From Rhizobiaceae bacterium (GTDB taxonomy: Bacteria; Pseudomonadota; Alphaproteobacteria; Rhizobiales; Rhizobiaceae), in contig JAHBYV010000018.1 in the NCBI GenBank assembly GCA_019635795.1, positions 16,903 to 80,902 of the forward strand: 64,000 nt of DNA, read 5' to 3'. The position numbers and the translations under genes were made by a program. The notes under the pieces are model-generated. The model saw only the letters and a program-made list of their open reading frames with translations, did no database searches and was not told the DNA's origin. Positions 30,103 to 46,858 of the stretch are shown one piece after another (positions within the stretch are counted from its first letter, which is position 1; each line of letters opens with the position of its first letter).

Positions 30103-30277
30103 CCTGATTGGTTCAACGTGTTTGCCGTTCTTATTTGTGGGTAGGGAACCCGCATACCTCCAGAAATCTGTTGTAACTAAATAAATATAGTCTAATATAT
30201 CCTGATTGGATCAGTTTTTGATCTGTGGCGCAGCCATTCTTGGCTGGGCGGTCTGATGGCTGGGGTTTTAGGGTATT

Positions 30278-32107
30278 ATGACCATATCAAGCGATTTTTC
30301 GAACGTGGTTCTGAATGTTGACGACGTGTGCGCGCTTGATCGCGGTCGCGTTTCGGATACGACCGCTTTCCGGATGTTTGCCGAGGGGATTCATCTCGAT
30401 TCGCGGGTTCTGACAAACGAGCGGTGGGCACACCTTCCGGAGCTGCGAGACATTAAGGATGTATGCGGGATCGTGATGCACGAGGTTGTTCCGCTTTGTT
30501 TCGATACAGCAGTGCTCGAAAAGCAAGGTGGCCACCTGAGCGTCCGCATTACCGGTGCGGGTGATTTCACCCTTGTGGGAATGAATCGTCGTGTGGTCGT
30601 GTTGCAGGGTTTGCCTCAGGACACGGCAACGGGTCAGGACGTCATTGACCTCGAGATTGATGCGGATGTCTTTTTGTCATTTTGCAGGGGATTGGTTTTC
30701 GACGCGGCCGGGCACCTTCTGACTGAGGACGACGAAGGTGAGGATCGCGAGATTTCCAATCTGGAACTGACTTTCAACGGTATGCCTTCGGGCGGGGCTG
30801 GTGGCAGCCAGTTGTTAAGCCAAAGCTCAATGACCTCAGCCGATGCCGCACCAACCTCCGGGCTCGAATATTTCCAAAACGGAGATGAAGGGCAGGAAGT
30901 GACAAGTGCTGAGGGTTTAGAACCCCGGATAATGCTTACCTCTTATTTGCCGGGCGAAAGCGCAGACTATGCTGACGCTTCGGGTTCAGGCGCAGATCAG
31001 GCCGGATGGGCGGGTTCGGAAGATGGTGCTTCCACGTACGATCTGGCTGTCCAGAGTTCAGATTTCAGCGCTGAGGACGGTTTGTCGGACGACGGCATCA
31101 TGACCATTATGAGCGTTGACGACGGAGGATCAAATCCTGTTGACGACAACGGTGTAGCTCTTGATCCGGAAATATACACCACGACAGTTGCAGATCCTGC
31201 TCCTGATGGTGAGTTCGAGATTACCAGTGTCGCCGGTGATAGCGATGATGTGAATGGCTCTTCTGCTGTGCTGAATCCCGAAATACCTGAGGCAATTGCC
31301 GGCGACTCTGGCTCGGTTACCGTTGCTGATGCGCCTGACAATTCCGTCGGCACGGCTGATGTTAATGCGGTTCCAGATGCTCAACCCTCAACCGCTGTAG
31401 TTGATGACGGCGCAGCGGTAGAAGTTTCAGACGGTTCCAGCTCCCTGCCAGGGGATGGTGTTGCTGAGCCTGCGTCGCCTGTTTCTGTGGAAGACGTTTC
31501 CGATGTTGATGGGGGTGCTGATCTCGCCGATGGATCGGCGGAAATTCCAGTCGATACATCTGGTGAAGCAGTGGTGGATGCGCTGCCTGTAGCGCCGGTC
31601 GGCGAAGTTCCTGTCAATGGAGGTGACCATGCTCAGGCAGGAGGTGACCATGCTGTTACAGCAGGCGCTGGAAATGCAGTGAACGAGCCAGGCACGGGGG
31701 CCGATGGCGTGGCGGAGCCGGTCCTTCCGGTGGAAGAGACGCCAGCGACTGAACCAGATGCAGTTGTAAATGCTGGAAATGGTAACGAGCAACCAGTGAC
31801 TGGCGGTGATCCGGCAGTAACGCCTCCGGCCCAGGGTGGTCAAACTGGAAACAATACGAACGTTATCAATCCGGTTGAAACCGCAAATGGTTCTTCGAGC
31901 GGCACGTCCAATCCTGTCACGCCAGCAGGTGGCAATGGTGTAAATGCCGGTTATACAGGCTCTTCGTCGGGCGGTTCGCAAGCCGGTTCGGGCGAGACTG
32001 GTTCCGAATGCACCTGCACTTGCGGTAAGGATCTGCGCGAATTCTTCTCAATGATGTTCCAGGGGCACGGTGGTTCTGCCAGCAATTCAGGTTGGAATTG
32101 CGGCTGA
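30278..32107 (+). CDS. Acidic low-complexity protein with LEPR-XLL-like motif and Cys-rich tail
   Basis: The 609-residue protein has three parts. Residues 1-170 look folded, mixed in composition, and match no family I know. At 214-222, LEPRIMLTS closely fits the LEPR-XLL motif seen in large exported surface proteins. Residues 225-580 are acidic repeat-like Asp/Gly/Ser/Val/Pro sequence of the kind used in extracellular stalks. The last ~35 residues hold a cysteine cluster (ECTCTCGKDLREFFSMMFQG, final NCG). No Sec signal peptide is visible, so export by a type I or other Sec-independent route is my inference. It sits between dnaG and rpoD. A TpA-rich block (about 30176-30210) lies 70-100 bp upstream, like those before the 36-45 kb cluster. 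Confidence 0.75.
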   Translation: MTISSDFSNVVLNVDDVCALDRGRVSDTTAFRMFAEGIHLDSRVLTNERWAHLPELRDIKDVCGIVMHEVVPLCFDTAVLEKQGGHLSVRITGAGDFTLVGMNRRVVVLQGLPQDTATGQDVIDLEIDADVFLSFCRGLVFDAAGHLLTEDDEGEDREISNLELTFNGMPSGGAGGSQLLSQSSMTSADAAPTSGLEYFQNGDEGQEVTSAEGLEPRIMLTSYLPGESADYADASGSGADQAGWAGSEDGASTYDLAVQSSDFSAEDGLSDDGIMTIMSVDDGGSNPVDDNGVALDPEIYTTTVADPAPDGEFEITSVAGDSDDVNGSSAVLNPEIPEAIAGDSGSVTVADAPDNSVGTADVNAVPDAQPSTAVVDDGAAVEVSDGSSSLPGDGVAEPASPVSVEDVSDVDGGADLADGSAEIPVDTSGEAVVDALPVAPVGEVPVNGGDHAQAGGDHAVTAGAGNAVNEPGTGADGVAEPVLPVEETPATEPDAVVNAGNGNEQPVTGGDPAVTPPAQGGQTGNNTNVINPVETANGSSSGTSNPVTPAGGNGVNAGYTGSSSGGSQAGSGETGSECTCTCGKDLREFFSMMFQGHGGSASNSGWNCG

Positions 32108-34569: not shown

Positions 34570-34586
34570 GCTCTCGGCGCTGGTGC

Positions 34587-35042: not shown

Positions 35043-35298
35043 GTCGCACTCCCGAAATGGATCGAGATCGAAGTGATATCGCCACCAGCGAGGGGGCAAT
35101 TGGCGGTCCGTACACTCGTTACATTTCTGGTATCCGCCATATTGCCCCCTCGCCGGAGCCCAAGGCCCCACGCCCTAAATCATGTTCCGCTTTCCGTTGG
35201 AGCGCCGCGTTCCGGCCGGTGCCTGCCCAATCTTCCCCGCACCGGCCAGAAGCTTCCCGCGCCCGCCGCTATTCAGACTTTTTGCCGATCCGCCACTT

Positions 35299-35428
35299 GA
35301 ACTTTGTTCATGAAGCACCATATCAGAAAATGAACGGCGTTCAAGAAAAACTTTGAACAAAGTTCAGAAAAAATCCGCCGGGCTGCAAATGTGTCTGCAT
35401 TCATGTTCATATCTCTTGAACATTGTTC
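35299..35428. promoter_or_regulatory. Four GAAC-N3-GTTC operator palindromes upstream of tetR
   Basis: The same 11-bp inverted repeat occurs four times: GAACTTTGTTC (35299-35309), GAACGGCGTTC (35332-35342), GAACAAAGTTC (35356-35366) and GAACATTGTTC (35418-35428). Three have a T/A-rich spacer. They lie 68-197 bp before the tetR start. Autoregulation by the TetR protein is the simplest reading. Confidence 0.72.
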
Positions 35429-35495
35429 ACATTTGTGCCTGAATCGTGTTTCAATGGCGTGAGTCAATGTTTGGCCTTGCCGCTGGAGGTTTTGG

Positions 35496-36125
35496 ATGGC
35501 TCTGGACAAGGATGAAGTCAGTTCGCGCGTGCTTGATATTGCTGAGGACCTGCTCAATGAGGGCGGGGCAATCAATCTCAAGGCCCGAACGATCGCCGAG
35601 AAGGCAGGAATAGCTGTCGGCACTATCTATAATTTATACGGTGACCTCGATGGCCTCCATCTGGCTGTGAACTTCAGGCTGCTTGACAGGCTGTCTGAAG
35701 CGGGAATGCGCACGATGATGCACATGCAGGCTTCGGGGGTTTCTGGCACGAAAGACCGGCTGTTGGCGTTGGCCAGAACCTATCTGGAATATGTAGCCAC
35801 TCACCCGCAAAGCTGGGCAGCTCTGCTGGCTTTCAGCCCGATGCGAATAGATATCTCGCGCCGTGAAGATTACGTAGGTCGTCTGGACGGATTGTTCGGC
35901 ATCATTACAAGGGTGCTGATGGACGATCAGAATCTTGCGCTTGATGAAGAAGAAAGCGTGCTGAATGCGCGTATCTTGTGGTCCAGCGTGCATGGCATTG
36001 TTACCAGCGGCGCAGGAAGTCGCGGTGCAAGCAATCCAGAGGTTGAGATCTGGCGGCAGATCGATCATCTGGTAACGGTCTATCTTGCGGGTCTGGAGCG
36101 TCACCCTGGTCGCTCCACGCATTGA
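35496..36125 (+). CDS. TetR family transcriptional regulator
   Basis: The 209-residue protein has the TetR N-terminal helix-turn-helix (residues ~8-58; ARTIAEKAGIAVGTIYNLYG is the recognition part) and a C-terminal ligand-binding half of the WHG type, with a Trp in HPQSWAALLAFSP. It is preceded by four matching palindromes. hlyU follows after 19 bp and may be co-transcribed. The effector is unknown. Confidence 0.92.
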   Translation: MALDKDEVSSRVLDIAEDLLNEGGAINLKARTIAEKAGIAVGTIYNLYGDLDGLHLAVNFRLLDRLSEAGMRTMMHMQASGVSGTKDRLLALARTYLEYVATHPQSWAALLAFSPMRIDISRREDYVGRLDGLFGIITRVLMDDQNLALDEEESVLNARILWSSVHGIVTSGAGSRGASNPEVEIWRQIDHLVTVYLAGLERHPGRSTH

Positions 36126-36144
36126 ACTGGGACGGGAGGTTTGA

Positions 36145-36432
36145 ATGTCATTCTTCAAAAAGTTGTTTGGCGGCAGCGGTGAGCCTGCTTCAGCCGAACC
36201 AAAGGTTGCGGGTGAGGCCGAACATCGTGGCTTCACCATCAAGGCAACGCCTTTTAAGAACGAAGGGCAATTTCAGACTTGTGGCGTTATTTCAAAGGAA
36301 GTCGATGGCGAGCTGAAAGAGCATAAGTTCATTCGTGCTGACCGCTTTGCCGGGCTGGAAGATGCCGTGCAGCTTTCGCTGAGCAAGGGCCGGCAAATCA
36401 TAGAAGAGCAGGGCGAGCACCTGTTCAAATAA
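36145..36432 (+). CDS. hlyU: HlyU-family protein
   Basis: The 95-residue protein matches the HlyU family (PF10115): MSFFKKLFGG start, AEHRGFTIKATPFKNEGQFQTCGVISKEVDG, then HKFIRADRFAGLEDAVQLSLSKGRQIIEEQG. The Vibrio HlyU named in databases is a distinct winged-helix regulator, so the functional label here is weak. A regulatory role is plausible from its tetR neighbour. A hairpin lies 15 bp after the stop. Confidence 0.85.
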   Translation: MSFFKKLFGGSGEPASAEPKVAGEAEHRGFTIKATPFKNEGQFQTCGVISKEVDGELKEHKFIRADRFAGLEDAVQLSLSKGRQIIEEQGEHLFK

Positions 36433-36447
36433 TTATCGCCGAAATGA

Positions 36448-36471
36448 GCACGCGGCAATCGCGCCGCGTGC
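36448..36471. terminator. Palindromic hairpin after hlyU and after the first Pro/Gln-rich gene
   Basis: GCACGCGGC (36448-36456) pairs with GCCGCGTGC (36463-36471). It lies between convergent genes. Its core is nearly identical to the hairpin at 39854-39879, which follows another cluster gene. Confidence 0.65.
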
Positions 36472-36557
36472 AATAGTATCTTCCATTGAGGAAATGCTGC
36501 TACGCCTGCAACAACCTCTCAGGCTTGCTCATTAGGCAAGCTTTAAATTCATACTCC

Positions 36558-37412
36558 TCAAATATACTCCTCAAAGAATAGCTTTTTGGGTTTGGTGAGA
36601 TTTGTGGGCTGGCCAGCCGGGTTCGGCTGTACCTGCACCTGGTTCGTCCGATGTGCCGGGCTGCCGCTTCCTGACCTTGCTACCTGCGGGTTGGCGGGTA
36701 CAAGAGGTTGCGTCCAAACGCGCACTTCTTCCAATTTAATAGTCGCTACGTCGGGCTGATTTCTAGCGACGTTACGACCGTTCTCGACATCAATCTGCCT
36801 TTGTATCTCAAATTGTTTGATGATCATGGACTGCGTCACGTCATCCTCGAAACTGCGGGGAGTAGGCTGTTGAAATTGCTGCCTTTCCTCGCGTGGATAG
36901 TCGAATCTTGGAGCGAGCGCGCCGTTCGCTTGATATTGGTTTGGTACGATCGGGTTAGGTCTGCCTTGCGGCATATATTGCTGTTGTCCACCCTGTGGAC
37001 GCGGCGGCAGATATTGATTCTGGCCCTGCTGCACGAATTGTTGACGCGCCGGGGGATGGTTCTGCTGTCCGTAGCCTGGCTGAACATATTGTTGACGCGC
37101 CGGGGGATAATTCTGCTGTCCGTAGCCTGGCTGCACATATTGTTGACGCGCCGGCGAATAATTCTGCTGTCCGTAGCCTGGCTGCACATATTGTTGACGC
37201 GCCGGCGAATAATTCTGCTGTCCGTACCCCTGCGGCAAATATTGTTGACGCGCCGGAGAATAATTCTGCTGGCCCTGGGGAATGTATCTTGGCTGTGGCT
37301 GCAACAAAATCACCGGCGCAGGCTGAACATTACCTACCGGTTGCACAGGTGGTTGTGGTGCCGGGCGTTTCACACCAAGCATTGCATCAACAAAGTCATC
37401 AAATCCAGGCAT
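36558..37412 (-). CDS. Pro/Gln/Tyr-rich repeat protein, cluster member 1
   Basis: A 284-residue protein of no known family. It starts MPGFDDFVDAMLGVKRPAPQ, a conserved N-terminal block shared with members 2 and 3. Residues ~45-135 are tandem 17-residue repeats of the type QQNYSPARQQYVQPGYG. The block NPIVPNQYQANGALAPRFDY is shared with member 2, and a helical segment VTQSMIIKQFEIQRQID with member 3. There is no signal peptide or membrane segment; most of the chain should be disordered. The ATG at 37412 has GAGGG 9 nt upstream; an in-frame ATG five codons earlier is less likely. The gene has its own conserved promoter region. Confidence 0.8.
   Translation of the reverse strand: MPGFDDFVDAMLGVKRPAPQPPVQPVGNVQPAPVILLQPQPRYIPQGQQNYSPARQQYLPQGYGQQNYSPARQQYVQPGYGQQNYSPARQQYVQPGYGQQNYPPARQQYVQPGYGQQNHPPARQQFVQQGQNQYLPPRPQGGQQQYMPQGRPNPIVPNQYQANGALAPRFDYPREERQQFQQPTPRSFEDDVTQSMIIKQFEIQRQIDVENGRNVARNQPDVATIKLEEVRVWTQPLVPANPQVARSGSGSPAHRTNQVQVQPNPAGQPTNLTKPKKLFFEEYI
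37040..37270 (-). repeat. 51-bp in-frame tandem repeats in cluster member 1
   Basis: Units begin with GTTGACGCGCC (plus strand) at 37040, 37091, 37142, 37193 and 37244, exactly 51 bp apart; four are full and the fifth is partial. Differences between units are small, so the array is recent. Each unit encodes 17 residues. Confidence 0.95.
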
Positions 37413-37455
37413 TTCCGTAACCCTCAAAATATCTCAATAGCTAACTACCGCTCAA

Positions 37456-37645
37456 TCCTGTAATCAGGACGCACACGGAACGTATGGGGCCATGGCGCGG
37501 AACCTTGGCCATCTTGCAAATCTAAAAATACAAAATGTATGGCAGAAAAACTGCATCCAAGCCCCCTGCTTGCAGCTGCGCCCCCGCAGACTGCGACCCC
37601 GTCATTAAATTAGCAGGTCGGAATATATCAATCAACAGGTAATTG
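37456..37645 (-). promoter_or_regulatory. Conserved upstream region, copy 1 (member 1)
   Basis: About 180 bp aligns with copies 2 and 3. Shared landmarks (plus strand) are CCATCTTGCAAAT (37508-37521), AAATGTATGGC (37533-37543), CTTGCAGCTGCG (37569-37580), and a TpA-rich end near 37605-37640 (ATTAAATTAG, GAATATATCAATCAAC). Read toward the gene, TTGGAT-N17-CATTTT could be a promoter. A hairpin TCCTG-TAAT-CAGGA (37456-37469) lies 44 nt before the ATG. Confidence 0.7.
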
Positions 37646-37691
37646 TTTCGAAGTGCACAATGTTGCGGATTTTGTTGTGCCTGAAAATGCA

Positions 37692-37721
37692 ATAGCTCGC
37701 AGCGAGTTCGCAGCGAGCTAT
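37692..37721 (-). repeat. 30-bp palindromic hairpin, copy A
   Basis: ATAGCTCGC (37692-37700) pairs with GCGAGCTAT (37713-37721), with a smaller GCG/CGC stem inside. It is identical to the copy at 38822-38851 and lies 136 bp past the stop codon of member 2. The minus strand then reads TGCATTTTC, so it could act as a weak terminator. Confidence 0.85.
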
Positions 37722-37856
37722 CAACTTTTCCGATTAAGGTCTGCGGGTAAGTACGCGCCAACTCCTTGGTCGACTCAGATTGAAATCTGGATCCGTGTGC
37801 AGCGCATTATTCGGCTACACCAGATATTCCTGCTGCACCGTCGCACGGGCTTAACT

Positions 37857-38537
37857 TCAAGCCAGGTCAAACCAAGATTGCTGGCTTGTTGCACGTGCAA
37901 TTAAGTTCGGCTGGTTGTCCATGTGCGCCATCCATCTCTGCAACAGGAGATCATTGTCGTCATTCGGGTAAGTCTGTTGCAAGGTAAGATAGGGGTGTTG
38001 CGCATGTCTGCCACTATGCTGTTGCCCTTGCGCGGCCAGAGGCTGCACTGAAACCGAGTTGTCCATGTGGTCCATCCATCTCTGCAACAGGAGATCATCC
38101 TCGTCACTCTCGTAAGTCTGTTGCAAGGTAAGATAGGGGTGTTGCGCATGTCTGCCACTATGCTGGTGCCCTTGCGCGGCCAAGGGCTGCACTGAAACCG
38201 AGTCGTTCATTTGGTCCACCCATCTCTCGTATAGGACATCGATGTTTTGATATGCTGGTGGTTGCTGAAATTGCTCCTCGCTTGGGTAGTTGAACCTGGG
38301 ATGAAGTTCGCCGTTCGCCAAATACTGGTTAGGGACTATCTGGTTTGCAGTGCGTTGCAGCAGATATTGCTGCTGGCCCTGCGGCGCAGATTGCTGGTAC
38401 ACGGGGACATAATATCCCGGCGGTGGCTGTATGCCATATGCCGCCTGCGGAACACTATTGACCACTTGCAAACGTGGTTCTGAAGCCGAACGTTGCGCGC
38501 GACCCTTTGCATCATAATAATCTTCAAATCCAGGCAT
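37857..38537 (-). CDS. Pro/Gln-rich repeat protein, cluster member 2
   Basis: A 226-residue protein with the cluster N terminus MPGFEDYYDAKGRAQRSASE, then a Pro/Tyr/Gln-rich half with NQIVPNQYLANGELHPRFNY (shared with member 1). The C-terminal half has two full 48-residue repeats and a partial one of the type LLLQRWMDHMDNSVSVQPLA ... HPYLTLQQTY, which look more structured and acidic than the rest. The ATG at 38537 has GAGAG 8 nt upstream; the frame extends 51 codons upstream into the conserved promoter region, which argues against the longer form. No signal peptide. Confidence 0.8.
   Translation of the reverse strand: MPGFEDYYDAKGRAQRSASEPRLQVVNSVPQAAYGIQPPPGYYVPVYQQSAPQGQQQYLLQRTANQIVPNQYLANGELHPRFNYPSEEQFQQPPAYQNIDVLYERWVDQMNDSVSVQPLAAQGHQHSGRHAQHPYLTLQQTYESDEDDLLLQRWMDHMDNSVSVQPLAAQGQQHSGRHAQHPYLTLQQTYPNDDNDLLLQRWMAHMDNQPNLIARATSQQSWFDLA
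37917..38240 (-). repeat. 144-bp in-frame tandem repeats in cluster member 2
   Basis: Two full units (37917-38060 and 38061-38204) and the beginning of a third (from 38205) share GT(C/T)CAT(T/G)TGGTCC-like starts and are nearly identical over most of their length. Each unit encodes 48 residues, so copy-number change keeps the frame. Confidence 0.92.
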
Positions 38538-38577
38538 TCTGGTAACTCTCAAATCTGGTATGGTTAACTGTTGTGCA

Positions 38578-38765
38578 GTCCCGAGTTCAGGACACACGGG
38601 GAGCGTGAGGTACCAAGGCGCGCCACCTTGGCCATCTTGCAAATGATAAAACCGACATAATGTATGGCGTTGTACTGCTTCCAAGCCCATGCTTGCAGCC
38701 GCGATTCAGCGAACTGCGCCCCATCATTAAATGATCATATCATAATATATATATCAATAAGGATT
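38578..38765 (-). promoter_or_regulatory. Conserved upstream region, copy 2 (member 2)
   Basis: It aligns with copies 1 and 3: CCATCTTGCAAAT (about 38632-38644), TAATGTATGGC (38658-38668), GCTTGCAGC (38691-38699), and a TpA-rich end (38720-38760, with ATATATATATCAAT). The leader hairpin GTCC-CGAGTTCA-GGAC (38578-38593) lies 41 nt before the ATG. TTGGAA-N16-CATTAT is promoter-like. Confidence 0.7.
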
Positions 38766-38821
38766 TATGCGGAATTGCGCAGATTGCGGTTACAAGATTT
38801 TTCCAGAATGCTAAAAATGCA

Positions 38822-38851
38822 ATAGCTCGCAGCGAGTTCGCAGCGAGCTAT
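38822..38851 (-). repeat. 30-bp palindromic hairpin, copy B
   Basis: Identical to the copy at 37692-37721, including the plus-strand lead-in AAAATGCA. It lies 83 bp past the stop codon of member 3. Confidence 0.85.
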
Positions 38852-38933
38852 CAAATCCTCTATCAAGGGTTGCGGCTACTCCGCAACAATTGCTCAATAT
38901 ACGCTCAGGTCAGGACGACCAAAGGCTCGGCAA

Positions 38934-39569
38934 TCAAGATCCGTAACCATCAAGTAGTGCAAGTTGGCTTTCAGTCAGATTCGCTGATGGCACAGGATGC
39001 TGTAGCTGACGTCCGACTTGCTGCGCAGCCGGGGCACGGTTCCCGTAATTCATCCATGTTGTATCAACCTGAGGATTATTCGGGCTGTGCTGTCTAAGGA
39101 TGACCATATTATTCTGACGGGGATTTTGCGAAGGTGCTGAGATCGGTAGATTAGACGGAATTCCCTGACCTTGATTGGCAATGACGTTTGGTCTGGCCTG
39201 CTGGTTCTGAATTCTAATCTGCCGCAAAATCTCTTCCTGCGTCACTCCCCGGTTATAGTCGGGATGGCCGAAATCCTGCACGGAATCGGGAGCTGGCTGA
39301 TACGCTTGCCTACGTGCACCTTGATAATTGTATCCTTGGTATTGCCCGCCGTTACCTTGATAGTAGCCCGGAGCGGGCTGGTAGGGCCGCTGTGGAACAT
39401 ATTGATATTGGGGTGCATATTGATACTGTGGTGCAATTTGCTGTTGCACCGGCAAATAATAATATGCCGGCTGAGCCTGTACTAGATGAACACCGACCGG
39501 TTGCACAGGTGCTTGAATTGGTCGGTCTATTCCCAGCAACGCATCAACAAAATCGTCAAATCCAGGCAT
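38934..39569 (-). CDS. Pro/Gln/Tyr-rich protein, cluster member 3
   Basis: A 211-residue protein starting MPGFDDFVDALLGIDRPIQA, nearly the same N terminus as member 1. The middle is rich in Tyr, Gln and Pro (QYQYAPQYQYVPQRPYQPAP, QYQGYNYQGARRQAYQPAPD). A short helical block VTQEEILRQIRIQNQQA matches VTQSMIIKQFEIQRQID in member 1. The rest is Asn/Gln/Pro-rich with no signal peptide. The tyrosine-glycine-glutamine stretches resemble prion-like or phase-separating sequence. Function unknown. Confidence 0.8.
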   Translation of the reverse strand: MPGFDDFVDALLGIDRPIQAPVQPVGVHLVQAQPAYYYLPVQQQIAPQYQYAPQYQYVPQRPYQPAPGYYQGNGGQYQGYNYQGARRQAYQPAPDSVQDFGHPDYNRGVTQEEILRQIRIQNQQARPNVIANQGQGIPSNLPISAPSQNPRQNNMVILRQHSPNNPQVDTTWMNYGNRAPAAQQVGRQLQHPVPSANLTESQLALLDGYGS

Positions 39570-39607
39570 TTTGGAACCCTTAAATCTCTTAGTTAACTAC
39601 TGTGCAG

Positions 39608-39785
39608 GCCCGAAACAGGGCGCACGCGGAACGGATGAGGCCAATTCGCTGGACCATCTTGCAAATGAAAAAATCACACAAAATGTATGGCGTGAAACTG
39701 CTTCCAAACCCCTGCTTGCAGCTGCGCCCCCGCAGACTACGGCCCCATTTTTATATTAGCATATCAGTATATATCAATCAACAAG
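39608..39785 (-). promoter_or_regulatory. Conserved upstream region, copy 3 (member 3)
   Basis: It aligns with copies 1 and 2: CCATCTTGCAAAT (39654-39666), AAATGTATGGC (39681-39691), CTGCTTGCAGCTGCG (39712-39726), and the TpA-rich end (ATATTAGCATATCAGTATAT, 39752-39771). The leader hairpin GCCC-GAAACA-GGGC (39608-39621) lies 39 nt before the ATG. TTGGAA-N16-CATTTT is promoter-like. Confidence 0.7.
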
Positions 39786-39853
39786 GGAATTGTTTGAAGT
39801 GGCCCTTTTGCTGCATTGACTTCAGTCCAATCCCAAAAGCGCGAAATGCAAGC

Positions 39854-39879
39854 GTCACGCGGCGAAAGCGCCGCGTGAC
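39854..39879 (-). repeat. Palindromic hairpin after cluster member 4
   Basis: GTCACGCGGC (39854-39863) pairs with GCCGCGTGAC (39870-39879), with one further G-C pair inside. It lies 22 bp past the stop of member 4. The core CACGCGGC...GCGCCGCGTG is shared with 36448-36471. Confidence 0.8.
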
Positions 39880-39901
39880 ATTGCCGTCGGGAGACAGGAT
39901 G

Positions 39902-40684
39902 TTATTCGAAAATAATGCTCTCTGTCATGCTGCCTGCGATCTTGCCGGGTGTGTAGATCGTGCTCGTCACCTGCTGGATAACCGCACCATTGTTTTGCGC
40001 AGGTTGGATCGCTTGATAGCGCGCAGCAGGCCGGTTGACCGTTGCGTCGTAATGATTGGTCAGTTCGCGCTTGTACGTTGCTGTCTCAACAGTCCCGTTG
40101 TCATTTGTGACGATTTTGCGCTGTTGCGTAACCACCACGTCCTTATGCTGAGCCTGTGGCTGTGGAAGCGGCACGAAAGGAGTTGTTGTGATAACCTGAG
40201 TATATTGCTGGTAAATATTCTGAACTGGTACCTGTGGCGGGCGCTGACCTGCATTTTGGAACGGCGATACCGCCCTTCCGTACTGTATACCACCATTTGC
40301 CGCAGGGTAGGTTGGCCTGCTGTCGAGCTTTGTCGGATCCGGAACTTGCGGCTTTTGTTCTATTGTCGGGTATAGCGGGGCGGTTGGGTACTCTGGGTAT
40401 AGATATGGTTCCGTATTCTGAACTGGAGGCCTTTGCGCGGCCCCTGTGCGAAGCTCATAAGGTCTGTCCTGTACGGTCTCGACGGGACGATATTCTTGCG
40501 GGTATTGCGTGTATTTAAATCCGCCTTGCAAAGCAGGGGCCTGCCCTCGCTGTGCTTCCGGGTATAGCGGGCCGGTTGGATATACAGGCATCTGCGCACC
40601 TTGTGCGGTGGTGTAGTATTGTGCCTGCTGGTTGGCGATAGGCTGCTGGTTGCCGGTCGGCTTCTGGTTTGTTGTTGGGTACAT
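39902..40684 (-). CDS. Pro/Gln/Tyr-rich protein, cluster member 4
   Basis: A 260-residue protein without the MPGF start; it begins MYPTTNQKPTGNQQPIANQQ and has several proline-tyrosine motifs (PVYPTGPLYPEA, EPYLYPEYPTAPLYPTIEQ). A more structured C-terminal region follows (KDVVVTQQRKIVTNDNGTVE, TATYKRELTNHYDATVN). Blocks such as QAPALQGGFKYTQ and PVETVQDRPY match member 5 (EVPAFQSRFIYRQ, LLADRPY). The start is unsure: an in-frame ATG eight codons earlier (40708) is possible and neither has a strong ribosome binding site. No signal peptide. Function unknown. Confidence 0.75.
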   Translation of the reverse strand: MYPTTNQKPTGNQQPIANQQAQYYTTAQGAQMPVYPTGPLYPEAQRGQAPALQGGFKYTQYPQEYRPVETVQDRPYELRTGAAQRPPVQNTEPYLYPEYPTAPLYPTIEQKPQVPDPTKLDSRPTYPAANGGIQYGRAVSPFQNAGQRPPQVPVQNIYQQYTQVITTTPFVPLPQPQAQHKDVVVTQQRKIVTNDNGTVETATYKRELTNHYDATVNRPAARYQAIQPAQNNGAVIQQVTSTIYTPGKIAGSMTESIIFE

Positions 40685-40734
40685 AGGAATAATGCGATCC
40701 TTAAGCATTTTGACATATGGAAATGTGCAGCCTA

Positions 40735-40925
40735 CCTCCCAAAGGAAAAAGTATGCACGACGAAATGGGATCGCGCGCTGTTATCCAACAGTGCACATTC
40801 ACGGTGAGCAGCAAATAATAGTTATGCAGCTTTGCCCCAAACCCATACCTTGCAGCCTGCAAATTGCAGAGTGCGACCCCCGCTTCTTATTAGTATATCT
40901 ATATATATAACTCAACTAATATTTT
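40735..40925 (-). promoter_or_regulatory. Upstream region of cluster member 4, divergent copy
   Basis: The TpA-rich end (TATTAGTATATCTATATATA, 40889-40908), followed toward the gene by CCCCC and CTTGCAGCCTGCAAATTGCAG (about 40848-40869), repeats the order seen in copies 1-3, but the part near the start codon is not conserved and no matching leader hairpin is evident. Confidence 0.5.
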
Positions 40926-41027
40926 ATATATTTCGAGATGTTATAACCAGCCATCTGATGGGCGAAAATGCATTGCCATCGGCGCATAAACCCCGATGGC
41001 AACATAAATTTTGAGTTCGTTCTTATG

Positions 41028-41675
41028 TCAGGCAGCAGCGGTGGCGAGCGGCTTTTCCGATTCGCGCTGGGCAATCGCTTCAATTTGCCCACGCGCTTTT
41101 TCAAGAGCAGCTTTGATCGCGTCCTCACCCATGCCGATTCCTTCGACCCGGATCACTTCCACGTCGGTCATTCCGTTAAAGGCGAGCACGCCCTTGAGGT
41201 AAGGAACTGCAAAATCCATGACGGAAGCGGGGCCTTCTGAATAGATGCCGCCCGATGCCAGAACGACATAAACCTTCTTGCCCTTTACCAACCCTTGCGG
41301 ACCATTCGGCCCATATGAGAAAGTGCGGCCCGAGCGGGATATGTGGTCAATCCATGACTTCAGGTTTGAAGAAATCGAGAAATTGATAAGCCCTGTGGCC
41401 AGAATGATATGGTCTGCCGCGAAAAGCTCATCGACCGCGGTGTCGGAAACGCTCACCACCTTGGCTTGAGCCGGTGTGCGTGCCTCTGCAGGTGTGTAGA
41501 TACCGGTGGCGTAGTCAGGCTCGATGTGCGGCAGGGGGCTTTTCACCAGGTCGCGCACGGTCAACTCACTTCCGGGAAGCGCGTTTTGCAGGGCACCCGC
41601 CAGTTCGTTTGCAACACGCGTTGACTGGGAAGCATCGCCGCGCGGGCTGGAAGTTACGAGAAGGATGTTGGACAT
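41028..41675 (-). CDS. azoR: FMN-dependent NADH-azoreductase (NADH:quinone oxidoreductase)
   Basis: The 215-residue protein is a flavodoxin-fold azoreductase, starting MSNILLVTSSPRGDASQSTR, with the FMN-binding phosphate loop SSPRGDASQS and the segments NFSISSNLKSWIDHISRSGRTF and LASGGIYSEG. It reduces quinones and azo compounds with NADH and is often part of electrophile responses. The LysR gene is divergent from it with a 118-bp gap, the classic arrangement for control by that regulator. Its composition is that of the host chromosome, not of the flanking low-complexity genes. Confidence 0.93.
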   Translation of the reverse strand: MSNILLVTSSPRGDASQSTRVANELAGALQNALPGSELTVRDLVKSPLPHIEPDYATGIYTPAEARTPAQAKVVSVSDTAVDELFAADHIILATGLINFSISSNLKSWIDHISRSGRTFSYGPNGPQGLVKGKKVYVVLASGGIYSEGPASVMDFAVPYLKGVLAFNGMTDVEVIRVEGIGMGEDAIKAALEKARGQIEAIAQRESEKPLATAAA

Positions 41676-41793
41676 TTTATTGCTCCGATTATTTCGCGCT
41701 GCAAGGCGCTGAATTCTGAGCAGAACATAGGGGTAGACATCGATCTAAAAAATCGGGAAAATATCTATCAATTATAACCAGAAAGTCGATAAG

Positions 41794-42741
41794 ATGCTGG
41801 CGAACCCCACAATCGATCAATTGCAGGTCTTTCTGGCAGTGGCGGAGACCGGAAGCTTTTCCGCCGCGGCCCGCCGTCTCAACCGCGCTCAATCCGTGAT
41901 CAGTTACACTATCGCGAACCTTGAGGCGCAGTTGGAAATGCCCTTGTTCTCGCGCGAAGGCACACGCGAACCGCGGTTGACGCCGGAAGGCAAGGCAATG
42001 CTGCCTGATGCCCGGCGGATGATTGGTGTGCTGAACGATATTCGTTCGCGCGCCGAAGGCATGAAACTCGGGCTGGAGTCAGAAATCTCCATCGCCGTTG
42101 ACGTATCGTTGCCTTCGCCGGCGCTTGTCGCGGTGTTGAAAGCTTTTGAGAGACAGTTTCCCGGAGTTTCGCTCAAGCTGAACGTTGGCGCGCTGGGCGT
42201 GGTTTGGGATCAGCTTTTAAACCATCATTGCGACATCGGCCTTGGTGGGCAGATGACAAGACCGGCTGATGAATTGGAAACAATCCGCATTGGCGAAGCG
42301 AGCATGATTCCTGTGGCCGCGCCATCGCACCCGCTGTCAGTTTATAAGGGCAGGGTGCCGCTTTCTGTCGTTCGCGAGAATATTCAGCTTGTTATCTCAG
42401 ATGTTTCGCGAATGACCGAAGGTAAGGATTTTGGTGTTTTTGCCTATCGTACCTGGCGCATGACCGACATGGCGACCAAGCGGGAACTTATTCTATCCGG
42501 GTTGGGCTGGGGCGGCTTACCTACGTGGATGGTGGCGGAAGATGTTGAAGCAGGAAGGCTTAAGGCACTCGACCTTGAGCCATATCCACCGCGGCCCTAT
42601 TCGCTCTTTGCCTTTCACCGCGCAGACATGATGCCTGGACCCGCCTCGACGTGGCTTATTGAGCGGTTCAAGGAAGAGTTGCCAAAAGTGTGTAGCCTTC
42701 TGCGGGGCAGGGCAAGTTCATTGGATTCACCAGAAAAATGA
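41794..42741 (+). CDS. LysR family regulator divergent to azoR
   Basis: The 315-residue protein has an N-terminal winged helix-turn-helix (IDQLQVFLAVAETGSFSAAARRLNRAQSVISYTIANLEAQL) and a substrate-binding domain ending around PYPPRPYSLFAFHRAD. It probably controls azoR in response to quinones or related oxidants; this is inferred from position. The intergenic A/T-rich stretch 41735-41785 is where an operator would lie. Its 3' end overlaps the convergent member 5 by 15 bp. Confidence 0.92.
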   Translation: MLANPTIDQLQVFLAVAETGSFSAAARRLNRAQSVISYTIANLEAQLEMPLFSREGTREPRLTPEGKAMLPDARRMIGVLNDIRSRAEGMKLGLESEISIAVDVSLPSPALVAVLKAFERQFPGVSLKLNVGALGVVWDQLLNHHCDIGLGGQMTRPADELETIRIGEASMIPVAAPSHPLSVYKGRVPLSVVRENIQLVISDVSRMTEGKDFGVFAYRTWRMTDMATKRELILSGLGWGGLPTWMVAEDVEAGRLKALDLEPYPPRPYSLFAFHRADMMPGPASTWLIERFKEELPKVCSLLRGRASSLDSPEK

Positions 42742-43344
42742 CATGAACTGGGAAACCATTCCCGAAGAGGAAGAAGAGCTGCTGATTTCAACACGTGAAT
42801 AGTGCGAGACTGATTCATGTGATGAACTGGACTCGGAAATCAGCGAGGCGTCATTTGCCTGAAGCGCTAGTTGCTGCCTGTTCGCGATATAGCGATTACG
42901 GCCCTGTTCGGGAGGGTTGTTCGCTGCATAACTGTCGGGTTCCGTCTGTATGGTTTGTTGCTTGATCAATATCATTGATCTGGCGGGCGGCTCCGGTAAC
43001 GGGTCAAAAATGCGCGGCCTTGGCCTTGCTACCACAGACTGCTGCATTTCAGGTCTGTGCGCCAAAATTTGTTGCGGTCCAACAGACCCTTTCAACCCTG
43101 ATGCGGACATCGGTACAAATCGAGATGGATACGGCCGGTCGGCCAGTAGGTTCACCTGCGGCTTCGGCTCAACCGGAACTATCTGGCGATAGATGAAGCG
43201 CGATTGAAATGCAGGCACTTCCCCCGGTTGGCCTTGCGGTATAATTGGCTGGTCTGGGAATAGTTTATGTCTGTACTCGATACGCTGAGCGCCAGATTGA
43301 GCAGAACTCTGATTGTTTGACGGTATTTTATTCGGGTATGGCAT
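42727..43344 (-). CDS. Pro/Gln-rich protein, cluster member 5, with Ser-rich tail
   Basis: A 205-residue protein starting MPYPNKIPSNNQSSAQSGAQ, related to member 4 (see FQSRFIYRQ and LLADRPYPSRF). The C terminus is a run of serines (ISSSSSSSGMVSQFMSFFW) ending in an aromatic hydrophobic tail. It has no signal peptide or clear membrane segment. The ATG is preceded by AAAGGG 9 nt upstream. It overlaps the convergent LysR gene by 15 bp. Function unknown. Confidence 0.75.
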   Translation of the reverse strand: MPYPNKIPSNNQSSAQSGAQRIEYRHKLFPDQPIIPQGQPGEVPAFQSRFIYRQIVPVEPKPQVNLLADRPYPSRFVPMSASGLKGSVGPQQILAHRPEMQQSVVARPRPRIFDPLPEPPARSMILIKQQTIQTEPDSYAANNPPEQGRNRYIANRQQLALQANDASLISESSSSHESVSHYSRVEISSSSSSSGMVSQFMSFFW

Positions 43345-43694
43345 TGTCCGAAACCCTTTAAGAAATATTACTATATTAATATATTACGCAGATGCTCGGT
43401 GTCAGAGAAATTACGTAATAAACTGTAAGTAAATTGAACTTATGCGCCCTATCGCGCCACATTCTTCGCAATTTTCATTACTTTGCCCCAAGCTCGATAT
43501 CATCAGCTCGTTGATTGAGTTGATTAAAAGTATTATATATCAAATAATATATTAGGTAATACGAATTTTAATGGATGGCTGGGATGCTGGCACAAATAAT
43601 GGAAAACGCTTCTCGGCGACATAGGAACGCGGTCGTGCAATGTAACAATCGAGCCAAGCCGAGAAGCGCTAAACATATCAGATATTAAATGTTG
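43345..43694 (-). promoter_or_regulatory. AT-rich gap between cluster members 5 and 6
   Basis: No gene. It has TpA-rich blocks (ATATTACTATATTAATATAT, 43365-43384, and ATTATATATCAAATAATATA, 43532-43551), TTTGCCCCAAG (43481-43491, GGGGCAAA toward member 5), and an inverted repeat CGCTTCTCGGC/GCCGAGAAGCG (43607-43617 and 43658-43668) about 30 nt past the member 6 stop codon. Confidence 0.55.
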
Positions 43695-44744
43695 TCAAAA
43701 AGGCATATTGGTGTTCGCAGTTGATCCTATCGGATAGTTTGCCGAAATATTTATGCTAGAATGGTGTATCTGAACATCATTTATCCCAACAACATATTGC
43801 TGCAAGTTAATATGTTGTTCTACCGGGACTGGAGCCGGCTGCTGGTTAAACTGGTTATTTTGAAGTGGAAGTTGAGGCGGAACTTGCTGTGGACCACCAT
43901 TTGGCGCCTTTTGTTGTCCCAGAAATCTCTGCGGGCGTACATTTTGTGGCGCTTCATCAAAAATTCTACGCCTTTGACGCCCTGCGGGAACTGGGTTGTT
44001 GGGCACGTTCTGTTGTTGTTCTATAACAACCCGCTCTTGAACCTGGATTTGCTGGCCATTGTTGTTCTGAACAATGACATCCGTACGCTGAACCACATTT
44101 GCAGCTGGCCGAAATTGGTTGCTATTTTGCCGGGTTAGAGTTGGTGGCCGTGGCAAATCCTGTACCTGCTCCTGCTCTATCTGTTGTGGTTTATTGTAAA
44201 TAGGCGATGCGTAAATGACGACGGATTCTTGTATATTGTTTGCACGGTATGGAACTTGTTGTGGGGCACCCTGGTATCTGGCAGGTGCGTATTGTTGTTG
44301 CGTTGTTGGCGAGTTTGCGCGGACATTATAGGGTTGATAGGGTTGCGGTGACGGCACGCGCGCCGGCGAATTGGCCACCAACGTTCCCTGCGGACCATAA
44401 ACAACCTGCTGGTAAGCTGGCGAATTAGCCCGACTTCCCTGCGGCTGAACATAAACAACGTGCTGGCGAACAGGCGAATTTGCCCCGATTATCTGCGTCT
44501 GCTGACCGTAACCATACTGCTGAAGCCTTGGTGATTCAGCGCGTACATAATATTCGGCTGGAGGGAACTGAAACTGTTGACCCTGCGGCTGCAAAACGCG
44601 CCCAGGTGATGGGGGGCGACTTCCACTTTGCAACTGAGGCAAACTTTGTTGTTGCCGGGTAAGTTGTTGTTGCCCTGCAAGTGGATTTGGCGACGGAGGC
44701 ACAACGTCACGCCTGTTTGGACGTGGAATAGGATTTTTTGCCAT
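43695..44744 (-). CDS. Pro/Gln/Asn-rich protein with ANSP repeats, cluster member 6
   Basis: A 349-residue protein starting MAKNPIPRPNRRDVVPPSPN. Residues ~85-150 are four imperfect repeats beginning (G/R/V)ANSP (GANSPVRQHVVYVQPQG, RANSPAYQQVVYGPQG, VANSPARVPSPQ, RANSPTTQQQY). Then come VVIYASPIYNKPQQ and a Gln/Asn-rich part with valine-rich strands (NVVQRTDVIVQNNNGQQIQV, ERVVIEQQQN). The C terminus (QYVVGINDVQIHHSSINISA) looks like a small folded piece. No signal peptide. Function unknown. Confidence 0.78.
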   Translation of the reverse strand: MAKNPIPRPNRRDVVPPSPNPLAGQQQLTRQQQSLPQLQSGSRPPSPGRVLQPQGQQFQFPPAEYYVRAESPRLQQYGYGQQTQIIGANSPVRQHVVYVQPQGSRANSPAYQQVVYGPQGTLVANSPARVPSPQPYQPYNVRANSPTTQQQYAPARYQGAPQQVPYRANNIQESVVIYASPIYNKPQQIEQEQVQDLPRPPTLTRQNSNQFRPAANVVQRTDVIVQNNNGQQIQVQERVVIEQQQNVPNNPVPAGRQRRRIFDEAPQNVRPQRFLGQQKAPNGGPQQVPPQLPLQNNQFNQQPAPVPVEQHINLQQYVVGINDVQIHHSSINISANYPIGSTANTNMPF

Positions 44745-45047
44745 TATATTGTCTCTAACTAGTTTTTTCTGATGGTTTATGAGTGTGGACGTTCAAGGCG
44801 AACGTGCGCATTCGGAGCCGTCAGGATTGCTCCTGAGCCGAGTATTGATTTCACATGATTTTCCCCAAAAGCCCCAATGCGGGAAGCTGAGTGTGTCAAC
44901 CTCCCGCATCTGTATAAACTAATATATTCTAATAAACATATCAATAGTCTTTATTGTGCACGCCAAGAATGCACCGCCGTTTCGGCGTGTTCGTCGAATT
45001 GTGTCAGATTGCTTGACGCGAGTAAGTCACGCTGCCAAACCGCAGCA
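44745..45047. promoter_or_regulatory. Divergent gap between cluster member 6 and the Cys-cluster gene
   Basis: The TpA-rich block TATAAACTAATATATTCTAATAAACATATC (44912-44941, two segments) and CCCCAAAAGCCCC (44864-44876, GGGGC toward member 6) match the layout of the other cluster upstream regions. The member 6 leader has no clear copy of the hairpin. Confidence 0.5.
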
Positions 45048-45494
45048 ATGACAGATCCATTCTGGAAGCAAAAAACGCTTGAAGCCATGACCTCGCAAGA
45101 ATGGGAGTCCCTGTGCGACGGTTGTGGAAAGTGCTGCCTTTCCAAACTCGAGGATGAAGACACCGGTGACATTTACTGGACTTCGGTTGGGTGCAGGTTG
45201 CTGGACAGCGGATCTTGCAGATGCCGGAACTACGAGAATCGGATGCAGATTGTGGACGACTGCGTTGGCTTGAATCCTCAAAATGTGCGCACAATCGTAT
45301 GGCTGCCGCAGACCTGCGCCTACCGTCTGGTTGCGGAGGGCAGGGAGCTTTACTGGTGGCATCCGCTCGTTTCGGGTTCGAAAGAAACGGTGCATGAAGC
45401 TGGAATATCGGTTCGCGGTCGCGTTACCGCTCTGGAGAACGAACTGGCAGATGCCGAGGATTATTTTGATCACATGCTGGATCATGATCTGTAG
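45048..45494 (+). CDS. YcgN/UPF0260 family Cys-cluster protein
   Basis: The 148-residue protein belongs to the YkgJ/YcgN Cys-cluster families: [39 protein letters not shown] and further cysteines in [26 protein letters not shown] and PQTCAYRL. The cysteines probably bind zinc or an Fe-S cluster; the function is unknown. The ATG at 45048 is the family start; the frame extends 57 codons upstream into the promoter gap. Confidence 0.9.
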
Positions 45495-45631
45495 CGTCAA
45501 TTCATATTTTTCATAATTAAATCAGATATTTAATGTGTGAACGCAAGGTGAATGATGTGTTCTGCCACCATTCAGCCGTCAGGTGCGACTAGTAAAGCCG
45601 CATAAATGAGCATTGGCGAAAGGAGCCATGG

Positions 45632-46093
45632 ATGTTCAGGACAGTTAAAGTAATGGTGGTTTCGGCGCTGCTGGGCGCAGGAGCGTTTTCGCTGGCTCCG
45701 GCAAGCGCGCACGCTGACAGCATCTATTTCTCACTTGGCGTGGGCGGACCGCGCGCAGACGTATTTGTCGATGATGGCTACCGCCGGGCAAATGAATGGC
45801 GTCGGCCCGGTTGGGATCGCCCCCCGCCTCCAGATCGCGGGTGGGGACCGCCTCCAGATCGCAGATGGGGACCGCCGCGGGATCGTTGGGGGCCGCCTCC
45901 CGGCGCATGGGAGCGCCGCGAAATGCGCGATTGCACAGCGCGCGCCGCAATACGAAAGGCTTATCGGATGGGCTTTGATCGCCCGTTCATCGCCCGTGAC
46001 AATCGCCGCATAATCGTTGTGGCTGGCCGCACGGAAAGGGGGCGCGATTGGGTGACGTTTGCTCGCGTACCCGGTTGCCCGGTGGTTCGCTAG
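45632..46093 (+). CDS. Secreted Pro/Arg/Trp-rich protein, function unknown
   Basis: The 153-residue protein has a signal peptide (MFRTVKVMVVSALLGAGAFS ... AHA), then a Pro/Arg/Trp/Gly-rich linker with short repeats (WGPPPDRRWGPPRDRWGPPP) and a C-terminal ~55-residue domain (DCTARAAIRKAYRMGFDRPF ... VTFARVPGCPVVR) with two cysteines that could pair. Similar secreted proteins occur in Rhizobiales. The ATG has AAGGAG upstream. It is convergent with the SIMPL gene. Confidence 0.82.
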   Translation: MFRTVKVMVVSALLGAGAFSLAPASAHADSIYFSLGVGGPRADVFVDDGYRRANEWRRPGWDRPPPPDRGWGPPPDRRWGPPRDRWGPPPGAWERREMRDCTARAAIRKAYRMGFDRPFIARDNRRIIVVAGRTERGRDWVTFARVPGCPVVR

Positions 46094-46111
46094 GTCGAAA
46101 CACACAAAAGC

Positions 46112-46138
46112 AAACCCCGGCCTTGGCCGGGGTTTTTG
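46112..46138. terminator. Bidirectional terminator
   Basis: AACCCCGGCC (46113-46122) pairs with GGCCGGGGTT (46125-46134), with A-rich sequence before and TTTTT after, so it can end transcripts from both convergent genes. Confidence 0.93.
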
Positions 46139-46144
46139 TTTGGC

Positions 46145-46858
46145 CTACTTGATCTCGTACGTCATGTTGACTTGTACGCGATAGGCATTTTCGCCCGCCT
46201 GTATTGGTACGCCTGCCGAATCCGCACGGAACTTTGCCTCTGCCATTGGCATTGGCTGCGCGAATCCAGTTGCTTCCGAAATCTGAAGCACTTTGCCGAG
46301 CGAAACGCCCGCTGACTGCGCCAGGATTTTTGCCTTGGCCATAGCGTCTGCCACGGCGTTCTTGCGGGCTTCTTCTTGTGCAGGCCCAGGGTTGTCGTTC
46401 GAGAACGAAATGTTGCCGCCCTGATTCACCCCAAGAGAAACTGATTTGTCGAGAATCTCGCCTGTTTTGCCAATATCTCGAATTCGCACGGACAGGGTGT
46501 TGGTCACCTGATACGCAGCGAGAACCGCTTCCTGCCTTCCATCCGGCTTTTGCGGATAGTCGTAGCGCGGATTGATCTGGATGCCGGAAGTCTGGAGGTC
46601 CTTCTCTGCGATTCCCGAAGACTTCATGGCCGCAACAACAGCAGCCATGGCGTCGTTGTTTGCGGTAAGCGCGTCCCGGGCAGTTTTTGCTTCGCGCATG
46701 ACCGCAATTGTCATGAGCGCTATATCCGGTGCCATTGTGGCTTCGCCTTCGCCAGTAACCGTGATGTGTGGCGGCAACCGATCGGCTCCGGCTGCCAAGG
46801 CCGAGGCTGAGCTTGCGAGGCTGGCTGCGAGCGCGAGGACGAGCGCTTTTTTGGTCAT
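46145..46858 (-). CDS. SIMPL-domain periplasmic protein (BP26/OMP28-like)
   Basis: The 237-residue protein has a signal peptide (MTKKALVLALAASLASSASA) and a SIMPL domain: ITVTGEGEATMAPDIALMTI, LQTSGIQINPRYDYP, DKSVSLGVNQGGNISFSNDN, GENAYRVQVNMTYEIK. The pattern closely follows Brucella BP26/OMP28, an immunodominant periplasmic protein that forms oligomeric channel-like rings. Its role is not settled. Apparently monocistronic. Confidence 0.92.
   Translation of the reverse strand: MTKKALVLALAASLASSASALAAGADRLPPHITVTGEGEATMAPDIALMTIAVMREAKTARDALTANNDAMAAVVAAMKSSGIAEKDLQTSGIQINPRYDYPQKPDGRQEAVLAAYQVTNTLSVRIRDIGKTGEILDKSVSLGVNQGGNISFSNDNPGPAQEEARKNAVADAMAKAKILAQSAGVSLGKVLQISEATGFAQPMPMAEAKFRADSAGVPIQAGENAYRVQVNMTYEIK

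Follow-up and report, generated by a model that had tools for sequence, protein, structure and literature searches.

Six proline- and glutamine-rich orphan genes form part of a genome-wide set with shared modules and a shared promoter element: possible export of disordered proteins in a small-genome Mesorhizobium relative

The window analysed here, a stretch of 64,000 nucleotides from the Rhizobiaceae bacterium assembly GCA_019635795.1 (contig JAHBYV010000018.1, positions 16,903 to 80,902; part of contig C10), carries six minus-strand genes, p1 to p6, for low-complexity proteins rich in proline and glutamine. The source genome comprises 3,256,896 bases in 30 contigs and is 99.28% complete. The original prediction had described these genes as six open reading frames (ORFs) of 205-349 residues, and they exist as such, with small corrections to the starts of p1, p2 and p4. 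They are, in addition, one outpost of a set of orphan genes scattered over the genome. The six genes are:

36558..37412, minus strand: p1, 284 amino acids (aa), Q 20%, P 15% and Y 6%, five 17-aa repeats GQQNYSPARQQYVQPGY, C-terminus KKLFFEEYI
37857..38537, minus strand: p2, 226 aa, start MPGFEDYYDA, two 48-aa repeats and a partial third, C-terminus SWFDLA
38934..39569, minus strand: p3, 211 aa, start MPGFDDFVDA
39902..40684, minus strand: p4, 260 aa from its likely start, related to p5
42727..43344, minus strand: p5, 205 aa, motif RPRIFDPLP, C-terminus SQFMSFFW
43695..44744, minus strand: p6, 349 aa, NSP-x-x-QQ-type repeats (by eye), motif RRRIFDEAP

The better starts are ATG 37412 for p1, behind the ribosome-binding site (RBS) GAGGG, and ATG 38537 for p2, and p4 probably begins at ATG 40684 (RBS AAGGA) and not at 40708; RBS-like sites precede at least p1, p3, p4 and p5. 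When all six frames were compared, the own frame was the sole one without internal stops in every gene and had the best codon score in 6/6, by a narrow margin for p3 and p6. Differences per synonymous site (pS) and per nonsynonymous site (pN) were 0.65 and 0.11 in the start block of p1 and p3, and 0.81 and 0.12 in the block shared by p1 and p2, both blocks having been picked because they are conserved; synonymous sites there are near saturation and the residues are kept. The 17-aa repeats of p1, pooled, gave a pS of 0.31 and a pN of 0.09, and the aligned p2 repeat (0.09 and 0.06) says little. Frame choice, RBS-like sites and pN/pS show that p1-p6 are translated and constrained in their shared blocks, and the codon scores, open frames and pN/pS values counter the possibility, named in the original prediction, that these frames are not translated. 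Codon scores do lie below those of ordinary genes and two members of another cluster, on contig C23, look frame-broken, but with a purifying signature in the shared blocks, RBS-like sites and an open frame in all six genes, untranslated or decaying low-complexity sequence is hardly credible as an explanation.

In composition p1-p6 hold 10-20% Q and 8-15% P, no Cys, and more R than K; Y makes up 6-8% of p1-p4 and in p5 and p6 is not among the eight most frequent residues. The charge-hydropathy rule predicts disorder for five of the six, p5 falling on the folded side. An AlphaFold model of p1, made with two paralogues, has a predicted local distance difference test (pLDDT) value below 50 in 245/284 residues, with one helix at 4-12 (the MPGFDDF start) and another at 195-210; it agrees weakly, being consistent with disorder and no stronger than that because three sequences are few. 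Mean pLDDT was 42.0 and 37.4 in the two structure models, too poor for fold searches. Hydropathy (no signal-peptide predictor was run) revealed no hydrophobic segment in p1-p6, N-terminal or internal, in accordance with the predicted lack of a signal-like N-terminus. The six also lie below every Pfam and NCBIfam cut-off, so that no recognised family claims them; the sub-threshold matches of p2 to Hox9_act (E 0.005) and TIGR02444 (E 0.017) and of p4 to NF005560 (E 0.014) look like chance and were rejected.

Relatedness within the window was examined by comparing all 15 pairs of p1-p6 with 200 composition-matched shuffles each, which supported relatedness for five pairs. The pairs p1-p2, p1-p3, p2-p3 and p4-p5 are related with z 8.0-10.3 (0/200 shuffles), and p1-p6 is similar beyond composition (z 5.5, 0/200), while the remaining ten are weak (z at most 2.2; 5/200 for p3-p6, at least 16/200 for the others). 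This indicates two subfamilies, p1-p3, perhaps with p6, and p4-p5. The sequence signatures first noticed read as stated: the MPGF[DE]D[FY] start is present in p1-p3, p1 and p2 share NPIVPNQYQANG/NQIVPNQYLANG, and p1 and p3 share VTQSMIIKQFEIQ/VTQEEILRQIRIQ. The genes p1-p3 are tandem duplicates, with about 230 bp of upstream sequence in common (74-78% identity to p3); this leader is not genome-wide, as at E <0.3 just those three copies were found. A locally expanded family is thus an apt description of p1-p3, but not of the six, which belong to a wider set. Likewise the cluster is co-directional but neither contiguous nor a single operon, which we rejected because two conserved neighbours outside the set stand between p4 and p5:

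41028..41675, minus strand: azoR, azoreductase (Flavodoxin_2)
41794..42741, plus strand: LysR regulator gene

The upstream gaps of p1 to p6 are 444, 396, 332, 343, 350 and 132 nt.

The wider set consists of 35 listed orphans, mostly Cys-free and rich in Pro, Gln, Tyr and Asn, at nine places in the DNA read, which amounted to 938,723 bases or 29% of the 3.26-Mb genome. Contig C23 carries a second cluster of six similar genes (the q genes) between asd and ffh (names by eye), as well as s1; r1-r6 and t1-t7 lie on C7 beside ParA/ParB-like genes (by eye), u1-u2 on C1, v1-v3 on C27, x1 on C3 and y1-y2 on C2, so that the set extends over contigs of the chromosome and one that bears ParA/ParB-like genes. 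Members were found through arbitrary stretches plus followed matches. In 39 own-genome stretches (723,342 bases), with coordinates that were arbitrary, not random, and in some cases near weak matches, 10 members were met, and by extrapolation the whole genome may hold 40 or more. A composition rule (at least 200 aa, P+Q+Y+N of at least 0.24, Q+Y+N of at least 0.13, at most one Cys) picked six ORFs from these 723,342 bases, one of which, in L045, is not counted as a member, versus none in 440,000 bases read of two other species of the genus (genomes of 4.4 and 4.6 Mb), hereafter the genus mates. In q2 and q5 (L040 5000-6320 and 13050-13743, minus strand) the frames look broken, possibly through sequencing error, decay or phase variation, with an MPGFDN start and a WDRFVAWIS tail in neighbouring frames.

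Several modules are common to subsets of the set: the MP(GF) start, a W-repeat, an [RK]xIF[DE] motif, an aromatic C-terminal tail and an AT-rich promoter. Counts of starts, Cys, tails and held-out promoters refer to 33 members (y1 and y2 were found afterwards), and the controls are 376 ORFs of at least 250 codons, unread frames included. Cys is absent from 29/33 members versus 40/376 controls, and an MP start is present in 15/33 versus 27/376. The W-repeat is a new domain of about 65 residues, W-x3-A...F.xP.F..P.p...nF..Y...A...W.G..G..FR, counted by an iterated model in 25 copies in 8/19 proteins, with E-values that are inflated, the model having been built from the same copies. An 11-row profile gives the fairer figure and matched 1/397 Hyphomicrobiales genomes, our own at 15 places, in an even draw from whose list the inclusion of the genus mates cannot be read; it matched 7/35 members and nothing in the 440,000 genus-mate bases read. 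Against solved structures it gave no match (best E 0.74). As a domain common to all members the W-repeat was ruled out by these 7/35, none of them p1-p6. The motif [RK].?[IL]F[DE] occurs six times, in p5, p6, r2 and r3 (mean 0.98 and maximum 5 in 500 shuffles).

At the level of the genus, both mates keep the local order rpoD, TetR, HlyU, azoR, LysR, YcgN, SIMPL. A tblastn search with p1-p6 and P0007, a further member described below, against the 20-kb regions of both mates found nothing at E 1e-3, and in one of them HlyU and azoR are spaced by about 100 bp at the site of the window's p1-p4. Between LysR and YcgN, the site of p5-p6, the same mate has a long OmpA-like ORF (by eye; L012 13981-16209, minus strand). 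Whole-genome searches took in p1, p3, p4 and p6: p1 and p4 were found in their own genome only (1/151 family genomes each, both genus mates included), as were p3 and p6 (1/3 genus genomes each). With the low-complexity filter on, tblastn of all 35 members against the 440,000 genus-mate bases found nothing at E 1e-4, and a scan of genome contigs with the p1-p3 alignment gave 186 pattern matches, none confirmed. In PHROGs the sole match of p1-p6 and 13 further members was that of p2, E 0.0048 over 17 residues; no relative of p1, p6 or r4 was found in IMG/VR or among the plasmid records of PLSDB, and none of p3 or q4 among the phage records of INPHARED. A literature search aimed at glutamine-rich, lineage-specific orphans in Hyphomicrobiales gave no papers, and we claim nothing wider about print. 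Judged from these searches, the set is, as a protein family, new to the collections searched with the queries named, while private sets of co-regulated disordered proteins have parallels.

One could also suppose that a mobile element, plasmid or phage carried these genes and scattered copies of them across the genome: 13 members share a contig with ParA/ParB-like genes (by eye), and clusters sit between housekeeping genes, a statement for which the genus-mate comparison covers the window. No transposase or integrase was seen, however, among the ORFs read around p1-p6, the phage and plasmid searches with the queries above gave no relatives but for the 17-residue match of p2, and the serine recombinase of the window stands 3 kb beyond p6, past the YcgN, SIMPL and tRNA-Met genes, all of which makes this origin highly improbable. 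The recombinase, with DUF2924 and DUF3489 genes (47742-50304, minus strand), lies near tRNA-Met (46987-47062) and is preceded by two 197-bp direct repeats (47106-47302 and 47337-47533, 92%); this region is probably a separate integrated element. The window also holds two genes for AAA/OLD-like TOPRIM ATPases (overcoming lysogenization defect type; 15075-16991 and 51039-52808, plus strand), with a possible role in defence.

Many members are further joined by a 28-base element, TTGcAtATATATTAGaATATgCTAATAT, mostly located 100-360 nt before the start codon. Its matrix was fitted on the upstream regions of 19 members, of which q4 and r6 scored too low to count. The sites in the window and the additional gene found with them are:

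37607..37634, minus strand: promoter element of p1, 22.0 bits, weak in the block-shuffle test
38729..38756, minus strand: promoter element of p2, 28.5 bits
39753..39780, minus strand: promoter element of p3, 28.3 bits
40887..40914, minus strand: candidate promoter element of p4, 22.3 bits, unsupported in the block-shuffle test
43549..43576, minus strand: candidate promoter element of p5, 20.0 bits
44916..44943, minus strand: candidate promoter element of p6, 21.3 bits, weak in the block-shuffle test
30171..30198, plus strand: promoter element before P0007, 21.8 bits, outside the training set
30278..32107, plus strand: P0007, 609-aa acidic low-complexity orphan between dnaG and rpoD

P0007 has a short Cys-bearing C-terminus and belongs to the set by its promoter alone. 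A scan of 447,902 own bases found 20 sites of at least 17 bits versus none in three Markov-resampled copies; 19 lie within clusters and the one new site precedes P0007. At 20 bits or more there are 15 sites in the 938,723 own bases, all in clusters or before P0007 (two on the strand opposite the gene, one before a short unlisted ORF), and none in the 440,000 genus-mate bases. With clusters held out, 23/33 members overall, and 16/19 of the independently found genes, pass the 95th percentile of the 376 control upstream regions; the scores of P0007 and u1/u2 are not independent because the promoter brought them into the set, nor are those of t1-t7, which were found by following the promoter at the end of a stretch. 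Below the mark are q1, q4, r6, t1, t2, t5, t7, u2, v2 and v3, among which u2 has a strong site 443 nt upstream, beyond the 420 nt tested, and t7 has its site across a stretch border. In a stricter test, AT-preserving block shuffles of the 19 held-out passers unused in training, with a matrix from four C7/C23 sites, 14/19 beat at least 95% of 500 shuffles, and p1, p4, p6, q6 and t6 do not. A degenerate pattern from five sites, P0007's included, occurs at exactly those five in the own genome and nowhere exactly in the two relatives; when up to two mismatches are allowed, the matches number 7 in the own genome and 2 and 3 in the relatives (0, 2 and 2 for the reversed pattern), and one of the own extras pointed to the C1 orphans u1-u2.

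The layout of the element, TTG-N16/17-TAATAT, is sigma-70-like. A strong sigma-70-type site surrounded by AT-rich sequence would look similar, so that the strength of the promoter, and not one regulator, may account for part of the signal. The element also scores on both strands about 35 bases apart (L058 1789/1824, L087 15988/16023, L128 9426/9461, L040 8193/8228), which suggests a partly palindromic site, perhaps the operator of a dimeric regulator. MucR/Ros-type regulatory sites of Hyphomicrobiales are AT-rich with many T-A steps; the element resembles them in both respects, and differs by its sigma-70-like layout.

Other non-coding features between the genes are:

37681..37724, minus strand: repeat beyond p2 in which an inverted repeat was seen by eye (TAGCTCGC...GCGAGCTA)
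39853..39880, minus strand: terminator-like 12-pair hairpin after p4, such hits being at chance number in the region

The first has a 98% copy at 38811-38854, beyond p3, and may act in a terminator-like manner. Generic scans of 30000-45000 stayed near chance for sigma-70 sites (14 vs 11.9) and for terminators (20 vs 16.7), and Rfam found no family over 28000-48000 but the tRNA.

The ends of the proteins are also distinctive. The last four residues are hydrophobic in 67/132 positions (51%) versus 28% within the same proteins and 25% in controls, and aromatic in 34/132 (26%) versus 10% and 8%; neither count, q5 with its tail cut by the broken frame included, was reached in 20,000 random draws, and the 376 control ORFs show no excess of either kind. 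By hydropathy, members lack any strong transmembrane stretch or clear Sec-type N-terminus, with the highest values in t1 (1.72 over 12 residues) and P0007 (1.67 over 19). In v1 there is a weak PPC domain (PF04151, E 0.0016, 19.7 bits vs a cut-off of 25.9), a family that none of the 35 members, p1-p6 among them, reaches above cut-off; this part of v1 aligns with two M10 metallopeptidases on plasmids (E 7e-3 and 8e-3) and has one match in the whole genome of one genus mate (E 3e-6). Ca-loop motifs occur six times in r2, r3 and y1 (shuffle mean 0.36, maximum 4). The gene directly before y1 (L128 8326-9384, plus strand) has a PPC-like N-terminus (E 7e-5, 24.0 bits vs 25.9), followed by a Cys-rich CGxxxS-type repeat array. 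A PrtD-type type I secretion system (T1SS) transporter is encoded on C6 of the same genome (713 bits vs a cut-off of 510).

The original prediction had left matrix-forming, phase-separating and secreted proteins side by side, among which sequence cannot decide; we favour export because of the PPC-like and Ca-loop modules in a few members, the depletion of Cys, the lack of a Sec signal and the aromatic C-termini. We would place p1-p6, tentatively and with somewhat less than even confidence, in a regulon private to the species, whose orphan proteins number at least about 35, are for the most part free of Cys and largely disordered, and would have Sec-independent export and a surface, matrix or contact role. 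Synthesised in unfolded form, the proteins would be exported with no Sec signal, the simplest route being a type I transporter that reads the hydrophobic/aromatic C-terminal tail. Once outside they would act as disordered surface, matrix or contact proteins, in which short sticky blocks (Y/R/Q/P repeats, the W-repeat, the IF[DE] motif) could bind each other or a partner organism; with constraint weak outside those blocks, rapid divergence and duplication would be expected.

A number of observations weigh against this picture. The tails are diverse and have no common motif. PrtD-type T1SS transporters are also present in both genus mates, in whose whole genomes no match to p1, p3, p4 or p6 was found, and the system is therefore not specific to the set. 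The gene adjoining the transporter encodes an ordinary RTX/BapA-type adhesin, likely the transporter's own substrate, and no set member was recognised in the 32 kb read around it. No RTX family of Pfam was reached by any of the 35 members, all of them scanned, and no type I transporter genes were seen by eye in the clusters read. The promoter evidence has its exceptions as well: among 27 sites of at least 17 bits in the 938,723 own bases two lie by unrelated genes, as do both such sites in the 440,000 genus-mate bases, and p1, p4 and p6 fail the strict shuffle test (56, 222 and 46 of 500). The adhesin itself (L124 10543-13455, plus strand), of RTX type, has Big domains, BapA_N and four strong DUF285 repeats, a family described from Mycoplasma and odd in this genome.

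The same composition could serve inside the cell. Prion-like low-complexity domains such as that of FUS consist of Tyr/Arg stickers in Gln/Pro/Asn spacers, and the set, likened to them by composition, has a comparable sticker/spacer make-up, although it is bacterial and has private repeats and tails. The proteins would then form a cytosolic condensate or scaffold in which Y/R-rich prion-like disorder drives phase separation and the aromatic tails bind membrane or a cargo shell. This would suit the Q/P/Y/N content with R over K, the lack of Cys and of a hydrophobic signal-like N-terminus in p1-p6, the low pLDDT of the p1 model outside its start, and tails such as FWDRFVTWLCG and NWFERVWNSIFS, which look amphipathic (by eye). 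However, the PPC-like and Ca-loop modules of some members point outside, about 35 diverse proteins are many for one condensate, and low pLDDT from three sequences is weak evidence of disorder, so we regard this explanation as unlikely. It was graded, like export and the effector role discussed next, by weighing the extracellular hints against the T1SS of both relatives, its likely adhesin substrate and the lack of recognised members beside it.

The nearest known way of working may be that of the Ehrlichia tandem repeat proteins (TRPs), with no family membership claimed. TRPs are presented in the text cited as type I effectors that are disordered and carry tandem repeats and short linear motifs (PMC10028187). 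Our set is likewise alphaproteobacterial and probably disordered, with tandem repeats in some members and short motifs, non-Sec export being a hypothesis here. Candidate TRP-type features of the window genes are the 17-aa repeats of p1, the 48-aa repeats of p2, a disorder-like composition and the lack of a hydrophobic N-terminus, although repeats are not found in all members. The likeness is one of description, and TRPs differ in having Gly/Asp-rich repeats and obligately intracellular carriers, while the set is P/Q/Y-rich and comprises about 35 genes. As with TRPs, the set might consist of effectors that reach the inside or the surface of a eukaryotic host or prey and mimic host docking sites with their short motifs. 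The genome is smaller (3.26 Mb vs 4.4 and 4.6 Mb) and lower in GC (0.558 over 723 kb vs 0.600 over 440 kb) than those of the genus mates, which would fit a host-bound life; SP-rich repeats are seen by eye in p1 and p6, the [RK].?[IL]F[DE] motif exceeds its shuffle mean, and the set is private, fast-diverging and co-regulated. On the other hand there is no known host, none of the 35 members has a host-type domain above the Pfam cut-off, and the genus mate M. denitrificans is given as a sludge isolate in the text cited (PMC12700296); delivery to a host thus appears rather unlikely, if less so than a condensate.

Returning to export, the RTX/serralysin-type T1SS exoproteins with PPC domains are a second point of comparison. 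They share with the set the idea of Sec-independent export, Ca-loop-like motifs (three members) and a weak PPC domain (one member), and differ in that no RTX family or peptidase domain reaches its cut-off in the 35 members. The GGxGxDxxx nonapeptide repeats of RTX exoproteins, judged by the RTX families of Pfam, were not found in the 35 members, and by eye no dedicated T1SS genes stand among the neighbours of set genes, the PrtD-type system lying elsewhere on C6. A C-terminal signal of about 60 residues is ascribed to RTX proteins in the text cited (PMC3034196).

From all these results it is conceivable, although doubtful and less probable than export as such, that this genome holds a private system of perhaps 40 or more co-regulated disordered proteins built from few modules (the MPGF start, the W-repeat, IF[DE] and the aromatic tail), which would assemble extracellularly as a new matrix or partner-contact layer without counterpart in the relatives searched. 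Orphan genes of bacteria, even where they form large sets, tend to be encountered singly. In this small-genome relative of Mesorhizobium about 35 of them can be treated as one testable regulon, tied together by their composition, the promoter they share, a new repeat and the likeness of their tails, and the promoter opens the question to a direct test through its regulator and inducing condition. If exported, the proteins would give the Hyphomicrobiales a new repertoire of extracellular disordered proteins, and would offer a natural experiment on the rise of such repertoires within one genus.

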